Below, in pieces: positions 23,011 through 37,763 of a stretch of DNA of 64,000 bases; the first letter of the stretch is position 1; each line of letters begins with the position of its first letter. Origin of the DNA: Anaerolineae bacterium. Lineage in GTDB: Bacteria; Chloroflexota; Anaerolineae; J036; Brachytrichaceae. A program made the position numbers and the translations under genes. The notes under the pieces are model-generated. The model ran no database searches. It worked only from the letters and a program-made list of their open reading frames with translations, and was not told the origin of the DNA. The stretch is taken from assembly GCA_947476335.1 (NCBI GenBank), contig CANJQH010000007.1, positions 1-64,000 on the forward strand, read 5' to 3'.

Positions 23011-23122
23011 GTAACTGCTCAGGCCAGCCATTTTTCCAACGCCAAACACACTATTCTCTCCCCCTTCGGGGAAGAGAATAGTGTGTTTGGCGGGAAATAT
23101 TGATTTGGGCCTGAGTAGTTAC
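23011..23122 (-). mobile_element. Element A, intact 112-bp copy
   Basis: It has complete ends and a hairpin with a compensated change (CCAAACAC paired with GTGTTTGG instead of CGAAACAC/GTGTTTCG). Exact 8-bp flanks AAAAATCG lie at 23003-23010 and 23123-23130. Confidence 0.94.
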
Positions 23123-25703: not shown

Positions 25704-25793
25704 TTCAGCCTCAGAGCAGTATTTTCCGCGAAATACGCTGTCCATTCCGCCTTCAGTAAGAGAGACAGCGCGTTTCACAATGGGGAATTGACC
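25704..25793. repeat. Old element A copy between E1 alpha and E1 beta
   Basis: CAGTATTTTCCGCGAAATAC, GCTGTCCATTCCGCCTTC, GAGAGACAGCGCGTTTCAC and TGGGGAATTGACC follow the element A order with many substitutions. The hairpin is partly preserved (GCTGTC/GACAGC) and the termini are gone. Confidence 0.7.
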
Positions 25794-26819: not shown

Positions 26820-26931
26820 GTAACTACTCAGGCCCAAATCAGTATTTCCCGCGAAACACACTATTCTCTCCCCCTTCGGAGGAGAGAATAGTGTGTTTCG
26901 CGTTGGAAAAATGGCTGGCCTGAGTAGTTAC
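26820..26931 (+). mobile_element. Element A, intact 112-bp copy
   Basis: It has complete ends and hairpin, with one mismatch at the tip (CCCCCTTCGGAGG). Flanks GACAAAAA (26812-26819) and GACAAAAG (26932-26939) match at 7 of 8 positions. The left flank begins inside the stop codon of the E1 beta gene. Confidence 0.93.
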
Positions 26932-28576: not shown

Positions 28577-28688
28577 GTAACTGCTCAGGCCAGCTATTTT
28601 TCCAACGCGAAACACACTATTGTCTCCCCCTTCGGGGGAGACAATAGTGTGTTTCGCGGGAAATACTGATTTGGGCCTGAGTAGTTAC
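28577..28688 (-). mobile_element. Element A, intact 112-bp copy
   Basis: It has complete ends and a hairpin carrying a compensated pair (CTATTGTCTC/GAGACAATAG). Exact flanks CTGTTGAA lie at 28569-28576 and 28689-28696. Confidence 0.95.
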
Positions 28689-28925: not shown

Positions 28926-31157
28926 TTACCTCGCGTGCTCGAGCAGCTCCGCCACCTTCAGCAAACTCATCCACCACTGTTCCTTCGGTCGATCAAAAGT
29001 CATGTCTCCAAGGTCGTAAAAATTTTTCAGCGGCGTCATCACTACATCACCATGCTGATGGCCGATCATGACTGCATCACGACGACCATACGCAAACTGC
29101 TCACCAAAAAAACCTACTGCACGTGCCGCCAACTGCGTCGCTCGTACGCGGTCTTCCGGGCTCGGATCTCCGCCCTGCTGCATATGGCCAAGCACGGTAT
29201 TGCGCACATCGAAGTGCGCACCGCCCTCTTCTTCGAACATCGCGCACATGAACGGCGTTGTATACAGCTTGTTCGCTGCTTCGTTGCGAACCATCAACGA
29301 CAAGCGATTGCCCTTCTCGAAGCTCTCAATCATGCGCGCCAGATCGCGCTGCAGATCCGCCATGCAGATACCCTGCTCGTGCGTATAGATGTGCTCAGCA
29401 CCGGAAGCGAGTCCGGCCATCACAGCGAGATAGCCACAGTAGTGACCCATTACTTCCACCACGAATGCGCGATGCTGTGATGCAATCGCCGACTGCTTGA
29501 TCATGTCAATCACGCGCACAATGGCGTTCAATGCCGTATCCGCACCCACACTGAAATCCGATCCTGGCAGGTTGTTGTCGATGGAAACCGGTAGACAAAC
29601 GATTGGAATATCCAGTTCCGGATGCAGCACACGCGCAGCGCGCAGCGTATCTGCAGCCACATAACCACTCCAGCCGCCGATGACGATCAGGCCGTCAATC
29701 GCGTGCGCCTGCATCTGCCCTGCGCACAGCGCAATTTCATCGGCCGTCGGCAAATGCCGATTTGTGCCGAGTAGCGCTCCACCTTGCGGCCCCCAGCCAT
29801 CGACGCTGCCCCAATTAAAAGGCTCGATATTGCCCGCGGCAAGGCCGATGAATCCATTGCGCACCGCATGCACATCATGCCCATGCTCAAGCGCAAGCCG
29901 CACCACCGCCCGCACCGCCGTGTTCATCCCAGGTGCCGGCGCACCGCCGTGCATCACCGCGATACGCCGCCCACCACGTGATCCCTGGTCCGGCAGCGCA
30001 CGCGCCATCGCCTCAAATACTTCGTGCAACTCAGCGAAGTCCGCACCACGCAGCTGCATCACACGCTCAAAATTGCCCGCCGCCACAGCCTGCGGAACAG
30101 CACGAGTCTCGGCCACACAGTGCATCAGCGGCGCGCGCACTATGCGATTGTTCTGTATGCCGATCAAACATGGCTCACTCGACGGCGATGTACCCAGCAA
30201 CAACTCCACCGCTTCAACACCAAGCAGCGAACTCATCCAGCGGTCGTACGCACTCGGTGCACCACCACGCTGCACGTGGCCGAGGATCGTCACGCGCACT
30301 TCCACGTTCAGCTGCTCTTCGAGGATGTGCTGCACAGCCTCGCTCGTAATCGGCCGGCCAGCACGATCGCGCGCACCTTCGGCCACCACCACGATGCTGT
30401 CGCGACGCCCGGCCGCACGCCCGGCGCGCAGCAACGCACACATCTGATCTTCCCAGCCGTCCTGCGGCGGAATTTCTGGCAGCAGCACCCAGTCGGCCCC
30501 ACCAGCGATGGCGCCGGCCAACGCCAAATAGCCGCAGTTGCGGCCCATCACTTCGATGATGAACGTGCGCTGATGACTCGCCGCCGTGCTCGAAATCGCA
30601 TCGATGGCCTCGATGATGCGATGCAGCGCCGTGTCCGCACCAATCGTCATATCAGTGCCGCAGAAGTCGTTGTCAATCGAACCCACCAGGCCGACGATGC
30701 CAAGCTGTGGATGCGCATCCGCCAGCGCACGCGGGATGCGCCCACCCGCGACAAGTTCATCCAGCAGGCCCGGCCACTCACGGCGAAAAGTATCGGCGCC
30801 AGTCAGGCTGCCATCACCGCCGATGACGACGATGCGATCGATGCCATGCACAAGCAGATTCTGCGCCGCACTCAACCGGCCAGCTCGCTCACGAAACGCC
30901 GGGCAACGTGCAGTGCCGATGATGGTGCCGCCACGCTGCAGAATGCCGGCGGTATCACGCCACTTCATTGGCCGAATTGCGTCACCCCCATCGACCATGC
31001 CCTGATACCCTTCACGAATCGCGAACACTTTCGCGCCACGATTCAGCGCACTGCGCACCACAGCGCGCACCGCCGCATTCATTCCAGGCGCATCGCCGCC
31101 GCTCGTCAATACACCGATCGAAATTGCTTCGTGCTCACGTTCAATTGAAGAATCCAT
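28926..31157 (-). CDS. Two-domain (eukaryote-like) 6-phosphofructokinase
   Basis: This 743-residue protein has two PfkA domains in tandem, as in eukaryotic ATP-PFK; bacterial enzymes normally have one of about 320 residues. The N-terminal half keeps the catalytic set: GGDAPGMN (20-27), GGDGS (113-117), SIDND (160-164, with the base Asp) and MGRNCGYLA. The C-terminal half (from about 395) keeps the fold (GGAPAPGMN, GADTALN, MGHYCGYLA) but has GGWSG for GGDGS and SIDNN for SIDND, so it is probably a non-catalytic, regulatory half. It catalyses fructose 6-phosphate to fructose 1,6-bisphosphate in glycolysis. Whether ATP or PPi is the donor is not tested; GGDGS favours ATP. Confidence 0.92.
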   Translation of the reverse strand: MDSSIEREHEAISIGVLTSGGDAPGMNAAVRAVVRSALNRGAKVFAIREGYQGMVDGGDAIRPMKWRDTAGILQRGGTIIGTARCPAFRERAGRLSAAQNLLVHGIDRIVVIGGDGSLTGADTFRREWPGLLDELVAGGRIPRALADAHPQLGIVGLVGSIDNDFCGTDMTIGADTALHRIIEAIDAISSTAASHQRTFIIEVMGRNCGYLALAGAIAGGADWVLLPEIPPQDGWEDQMCALLRAGRAAGRRDSIVVVAEGARDRAGRPITSEAVQHILEEQLNVEVRVTILGHVQRGGAPSAYDRWMSSLLGVEAVELLLGTSPSSEPCLIGIQNNRIVRAPLMHCVAETRAVPQAVAAGNFERVMQLRGADFAELHEVFEAMARALPDQGSRGGRRIAVMHGGAPAPGMNTAVRAVVRLALEHGHDVHAVRNGFIGLAAGNIEPFNWGSVDGWGPQGGALLGTNRHLPTADEIALCAGQMQAHAIDGLIVIGGWSGYVAADTLRAARVLHPELDIPIVCLPVSIDNNLPGSDFSVGADTALNAIVRVIDMIKQSAIASQHRAFVVEVMGHYCGYLAVMAGLASGAEHIYTHEQGICMADLQRDLARMIESFEKGNRLSLMVRNEAANKLYTTPFMCAMFEEEGGAHFDVRNTVLGHMQQGGDPSPEDRVRATQLAARAVGFFGEQFAYGRRDAVMIGHQHGDVVMTPLKNFYDLGDMTFDRPKEQWWMSLLKVAELLEHAR

Positions 31158-31207
31158 AGCTCAATTTTTTGAAAGTTAAAAGTAGATGGTCACAGTAGAT
31201 ATTCCTA

Positions 31208-31297
31208 AGTGAGTCGCCAAAAGTTCTGGCGGCAGATTCGCCTCCCCCGCTTTGCGGGGGAGGCGAATCTGCCGGACAAAACTTATGGACAGGAACT
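31208..31297 (+). mobile_element. Element B, 90-bp copy
   Basis: Imperfect inverted ends are AGTGAGTCGCCAAAAGTT and, on the complement, AGTTCCTGTCCATAAGTT. A perfect 21-bp-arm hairpin (31230-31250/31254-31274, CGGCAGATTCGCCTCCCCCGC) lies inside. The dinucleotide TA flanks both sides, as expected for Tc1/mariner-IS630-type insertion. Confidence 0.85.
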
Positions 31298-31299
31298 TA

Positions 31300-31369
31300 G
31301 TCACCGTCCATAATTTCTCGGACCAGTCAGTTGTCCAACACGAAAAATTGAGATGCCTGAGTAGCTGCA
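31300..31369. repeat. Degenerate element A remnant
   Basis: GACCAGTCAGTTGTCCAACACG and GATGCCTGAGTAGCTGC follow element A with many changes. It adjoins the element B copy. Confidence 0.5.
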
Positions 31370-34431: not shown

Positions 34432-34543
34432 GTAACTACTCAGGCCAGCCAGTTTTCCAACGCGAAACACGCTATTCCTTCCCCCTTCGGAGGAAGGAAT
34501 AGCGTGTTTCGCAGGAAATACTGATTTGGGCCTGAGTAGTTAC
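34432..34543 (-). mobile_element. Element A, intact 112-bp copy
   Basis: It has complete ends and a hairpin with several compensated changes (CACGCTATTCCTTCC/GGAAGGAATAGCGTG). Exact flanks GAAATAGG lie at 34424-34431 and 34544-34551. Confidence 0.95.
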
Positions 34544-37610: not shown

Positions 37611-37655
37611 GGCCTGAATCGTTAACGTGACTCGGCAAGGTAGCAAGTCGCGCTG
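37611..37655. repeat. Remnants of element A end and element D ends
   Basis: GGCCTGAATCGTTAAC resembles the right terminus of element A. It runs into TTAACGTGACT and GGTAGCAAGTCGCG, which match the two ends of element D with the interior gone. Confidence 0.5.
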
Positions 37656-37745
37656 AGTTCCTGTCCATAAGTTTTGTCCGGCAGATTCGCCTCCCCCGCA
37701 AAGTGGGGGAGGCGAATCTGCCGCCAGAACTTTTGGCGACTCACT
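37656..37745 (-). mobile_element. Element B, 90-bp copy
   Basis: The copy is inverted relative to the one at 31208. Right flank is TA (37746-37747) and left flank is TG, so one side of the expected TA duplication has mutated. The 21-bp hairpin arms have one mismatch at the tip. It ends 18 bases before the creatininase-family gene. Confidence 0.85.
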
Positions 37746-37763
37746 TAGTTACGGAGAAATTCA

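Follow-up and report, generated by a model that had tools for sequence, protein, structure and literature searches.

A two-domain, eukaryotic-type ATP-dependent phosphofructokinase in Anaerolineae and the probable rise of its fusion in Chloroflexota

The window analyzed here is a 64,000-nucleotide stretch of an Anaerolineae bacterium genome (contig CANJQH010000007.1, positions 1 to 64,000), in which a 743-aa frame opens from an ATG on the minus strand (Table 1). The plus-strand reading of the same interval was rejected, being interrupted by stops. The frame contains two matches to Pfam PF00365, with 356 and 293 bits. In a preliminary description the protein was called a tandem phosphofructokinase (PFK) with a catalytic N-terminal PfkA half and a degenerate C-terminal half, in which GGDGS is changed to GGWSG and SIDND to SIDNN; the two domains, the intact N-half active-site residues, and both altered motifs are all read in the window protein. 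Single-domain prokaryotic PfkA has one PFK domain of ~320 aa, while this protein has two, and PPi-dependent PFK is recognized by GGDD together with Lys before (T/S)IDND, while the N half has GGDGS and GSIDND.

Table 1. Coordinates of the PFK gene and its domains, motifs, insert, and linker in the window.
Feature	Position	Strand	Remarks
Tandem (eukaryotic-type) ATP-dependent 6-phosphofructokinase, 743 aa	28926..31157	-	Open frame; TIGR02478 987 bits; human PFKP E 1.6e-231
N-terminal catalytic PFK half, residues 13-386	30000..31121	-	PF00365; aligned catalytic residues intact
C-terminal non-catalytic PFK half, residues 398-740	28938..29966	-	PF00365; D103-equivalent is W496, D129-equivalent is N529
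GGDGS, phosphoryl-donor/Mg motif of N half, ATP type, residues 113-117	30807..30821	-	
SIDND, catalytic base motif of N half, residues 160-164	30666..30680	-	
GGWSG, degenerate donor motif of C half, residues 494-498	29664..29678	-	
SIDNN, degenerate catalytic motif of C half, residues 525-529	29571..29585	-	
~23-residue insert, residues 128-150	30708..30776	-	In tandem N halves of both bacteria and eukaryotes; single PfkA lacks it
Inter-half linker, residues 372-397	29967..30044	-	Follows conserved LRG..F motif, also in eukaryotes

Two kinds of repeats were observed around the gene. A 53-nt near-perfect palindrome (CGCGAAACACACTATT...AATAGTGTGTTTCGCG) occurs at 23040-23092, 25727-25779, 26850-26902, 28606-28658, and 34461-34513, within a mostly intergenic repeat of up to ~129 nt present in both orientations, and looks like a REP/MITE-like element. 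A 96-nt element with a 45-nt palindrome is found as inverted copies (98% complementary) at 31205-31300 and 37653-37748, one of them lying between the PFK and AspT-type permease genes, where it begins 48 nt upstream of the ATG of PFK; this element may act as a terminator or may be a mobile palindrome. Neither the Rfam scan nor the tRNA scan returned a match in the window. The sole other PF00365 protein of the genome (G000:C24:7611-8594) is a single-domain PPi-type PFK with a GGDDT motif and ~26–32% identity; therefore, the window PFK is the only ATP-type PfkA found there.

The window protein belongs fully to the eukaryotic-type PFK family TIGR02478 (6PF1K_euk, an NCBIfam equivalog), scoring 987.4 bits against a cut-off of 708.4 across profile positions 2–740 of 744, and the residue table gives it the features of that family: fused PFK domains, an intact N-half active site, and lost C-half catalytic residues. 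Its best solved relatives are the human PFKs, with PFKP at 773 bits over residues 12–738 (E 1.6e-231) and 50% identity. An AlphaFold2 model built from bacterial sequences only (pLDDT 88.6, pTM 0.89) superposes on human PFKL with a Z of 51.8 and 1.5 A across 732 residues and on single-domain bacterial PFKs with a Z of ~40 across 319 residues. By these likenesses, the protein is most likely a eukaryotic-type, two-domain 6-phosphofructokinase that depends on ATP. Since such bacterial proteins are already captured by the NCBI model of the eukaryotic type, family membership is not new; the protein is ordinary as a family member, and its evolutionary origin is the interesting part.

The eukaryotic two-domain ATP-PFKs (human PFKP/M/L and yeast PFK1/PFK2) share with the window protein the intact N-half catalytic residues, the dead C half with a kept sugar-phosphate pocket, the C-half change of R252 to Q, the inserts, the linker, and the full-length fold. 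They differ in the C half at the Mg-Asp position (F in eukaryotes, mostly W in bacteria) and at the catalytic Asp (S in eukaryotes, D/N in bacteria); at the R171-equivalent, most bacterial tandem PFKs have R or H and eukaryotes have G. Mammalian PFK-1 also has an autoinhibitory C-terminal tail of ~20 residues, which the window protein lacks, stopping 2 residues past residue 741, which aligns to human PFKP position 763. Single-domain PfkAs (E. coli and Geobacillus) are homologous to each half and have the same ATP-type catalytic motifs, but they are half as long, lack the ~23-residue insert and the linker, and form a separate clade in trees. A third group, the deep-branching Chloroflexota tandem PFKs (L093, L094, and L145-L163), is fused in the same way, likewise with a dead C half, and is ~47–48% identical to the window protein; these differ in that C-half R252 is mostly kept, L/M stands at the Mg-Asp position, and they branch outside the clade of eukaryotes and main bacteria.

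The rarity implied in the preliminary description did not hold, as the type is widespread in Chloroflexota, present in several other phyla, and covered by the NCBI family model. In a sample of 301 genomes from the window's phylum, 32 exceed the TIGR02478 cut-off, and in a sample of 396 from its class (Chloroflexota), 147 have a match to a deep-clade tandem protein with E < 1e-100. One genome of this class (G495, L188) has a PFK identical to the one in a named Anaerolineae bin (L041), which points to Anaerolineae as the class. A scan of GTDB species genomes confirmed 145 relatives, 80 of which were kept, from Chloroflexota, Accumulibacter, and Competibacter/Contendobacter, with single records in Planctomycetota, Deinococcota, Cyanobacteriota, Myxococcota, Actinomycetota, and Fermentibacterota; the spread outside Chloroflexota is taken from this one scan, and some single-record phyla may be binning errors. 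In the search of relatives at the family level, only genus g7 gave matches over all or nearly all of the length, so the distribution is patchy at a fine scale. The window copy groups with Accumulibacter and the Chloroflexota families f85 and f106 and not with g7 of its own family, which is consistent with transfer or differential loss. An earlier study of phosphorus-removal sludge reports, in passages that do not mention the architecture, that Betaproteobacteria received EC 2.7.1.11 from Chloroflexi (PMC4502571); such a transfer fits the Accumulibacter genes found here. Four Chloroflexota genomes (G367, G415, G433, and G418; e.g., loci L178 and L152) carry two tandem PFKs each, one deep-type and one less deep-like, and the second copies may be paralogues or transfers. 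In Chloroflexi Dive96_bin10.74 (L062), the tandem PFK is split into frames of 528 and 230 aa by a frameshift or sequencing error.

The catalytic and sugar-pocket residues were surveyed in 160 non-redundant bacterial tandem proteins (E. coli numbering). In the N half, R72, G104, D127, D129, R162, E222, R243, and R252 are invariant; H249 is kept in all but a single protein, where the residue could not be read; and the Asp of GGDGS (D103) is D in 157 proteins and E in three. The window N half is typical, with the ATP-type motifs GGDGS/GSIDND and intact catalytic residues. In the C half, the D103-equivalent is lost in all 160 proteins (W in 128, Asp in none) and G104 likewise, so ATP/Mg binding should be gone. 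The C-half motif changes thus run across the whole family and are not due to chance. R162, E222, R243, and H249, which are fructose-phosphate ligands of PfkA, are retained in the C half of 159, 158, 158, and 159 proteins, respectively. A very fast-evolving tandem PFK (L185; G412:C234:4292-6379) has C-half R162 changed to H and R72 to P, unlike nearly all bacterial copies.

These residues suggest a division of roles in which the N half would phosphorylate fructose 6-phosphate (F6P) with ATP, while the C half, predicted to be devoid of Mg/ATP binding and catalysis, would keep its fructose-phosphate pocket for regulation and may stabilize the oligomer. Eukaryotic PFK-1 is inhibited by ATP/citrate and activated by AMP/ADP and by F2,6BP, the product of PFK-2. 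F2,6BP acts there as the sugar effector of the C-half pocket, in which a human PFKP structure has F1,6BP bound (PMC12203962). A 6PF2K gene (PF01591, PFK-2) was over the cut-off in none of the 40 tandem-PFK genomes examined, the window genome included. F2,6BP is therefore disfavored as the native effector, with room left for an F2,6BP source of another kind, and the kept sugar-phosphate pocket points to F6P or F1,6BP instead as the putative allosteric ligand. On this basis, the most probable role of the window protein is that of an allosteric ATP-PFK that responds to F6P or F1,6BP.

Alternatively, the C half could be a structural relic retained for folding and assembly and free of ligand. The ATP/Mg site is destroyed in every C half, a canonical F2,6BP synthase was not found in the 40 genomes, the window C half is the fast half of its protein (end branch of 0.93 in the joint tree, compared with 0.31 for the N half), and some of the retained pocket residues could serve a neighboring site or interface. 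Against these points, the near-total retention of R162, E222, R243, and H249 in widely diverged bacterial C halves is unexpected for a relic, which makes this explanation unlikely, and the regulatory C half is preferred.

The origin of the protein was addressed by phylogeny. Eukaryotes form one clade inside bacterial diversity in every tree, with a eukaryote sample of mammals and two yeasts, and the deep Chloroflexota clade (first L093 and L094, then enlarged) lies outside the eukaryotes and all other bacteria in both halves. Monophyly of the bacterial proteins was not rejected by AU tests in the joint N and C tree (p 0.144 for N and 0.288 for C), but it was rejected for N halves alone with 14 outgroups (p 0.023) and for the concatenated halves (p 5e-5, dlnL 46.7), where each single PfkA was used twice as the outgroup. 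As these four tests overlap, were run once the deep clade was already known, and have p uncorrected for multiplicity, the nesting of eukaryotic PFK within bacterial tandem PFK diversity has support but is not proven. Five signature sites, in groups taken from the tree itself, fit main bacteria and eukaryotes against the deep clade and single PfkA, one of them being C-half R252 to Q (GHxQRGG to GHxQQGG); none fits either alternative.

The simplest reading is that the tandem PFK originated in bacteria and was transferred once to eukaryotes: the duplication-fusion probably took place in Chloroflexota, eukaryotes would then have acquired the fused gene, and it would also have spread to Accumulibacter, Competibacter, and others. 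The main rival is a transfer out of stem eukaryotes, in which the halves were fused in early eukaryotes and bacteria then obtained the gene, which spread widely in Chloroflexota. It draws on the higher identity between bacterial and human proteins (50%) than between human and yeast (43–46%) and on the single-half AU tests of the joint tree, which leave bacterial monophyly possible. With eukaryotes as one clade inside bacteria, however, it needs at least two transfers, one of them before the sampled eukaryotes diverged, and it also has to account for the 147 of 396 class genomes with the gene, for deep and main types within one class, and for a base composition of the PFK gene like that of neighboring genes. 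This rival is accordingly held to be improbable, and the rise of the fusion in Chloroflexota is favored.

Of the two origins offered in the preliminary description, an independent duplication and a common ancestry with the eukaryotic fusion, the phylogeny of each half upholds the second. In the tree of halves with single PfkAs, the tandem N halves of bacteria and eukaryotes fall without exception into one clade and the tandem C halves into another (100/100 each); the same grouping was found in a quick tree of halves, so that the halves group across domains and not within each protein. The outgroup included PfkA of E. coli and of Geobacillus, and the yeast query sequence was identical to its PDB chain. 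Trees required to hold all bacterial halves together are 228 log-likelihood units worse (p-AU 3.6e-4), and those holding all eukaryotic halves together 176 units worse (p-AU 3e-27). Compared with single PfkA, bacterial and eukaryotic tandem PFKs also have in common ~23 extra residues at 128–150, six at 265–270, and the LRG..F linker. The clades, the rejected constraints, and the common inserts and linker thus show the descent of bacterial and eukaryotic tandem PFKs from one duplication-fusion. An independent bacterial duplication that converged on the eukaryotic architecture, which has only the plausibility of tandem duplication in its favor, is hardly credible against these trees and inserts and is rejected. 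An assembly or binning artefact, with eukaryotic DNA in the bins or a metagenome assembly that fused two neighboring genes, is suggested by the many carriers that are metagenome bins, but it is just as remote given unbroken, intron-free frames in more than 100 genomes, single-contig ones among them (G190, G174, and G221), and PDH E1, Usp, and AspT-type permease as neighbors.

Recent papers still place the duplication of PFK in eukaryotes, as an innovation of animals and fungi (PMC12203962, PMC11609450, PMC2990764). No earlier report of a bacterial tandem PFK and no assay of a bacterial relative were found in the open-access literature searched, which is weak evidence of novelty. Taken as a whole, a two-domain ATP-PFK whose dead C half has a sugar-phosphate effector pocket, and which goes back to one fusion in Chloroflexota that later reached eukaryotes and other bacteria, is considered likely. 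The bolder proposal, that the PFK-1 fusion arose in Chloroflexota and was transferred to eukaryotes as a ready-made enzyme, with an effector site that was an F6P/F1,6BP sensor predating F2,6BP signaling, stands at slightly better than an even chance. If true, a core regulated step of glycolysis in animals and fungi would derive from Chloroflexota, and an older, bacterial fusion would shift the textbook origin of PFK-1 regulation into bacteria. The living bacterial proteins would then provide an outgroup for the order in which the effector sites arose, and simple recombinant bacterial enzymes would be usable for studies of PFK-1 allostery.
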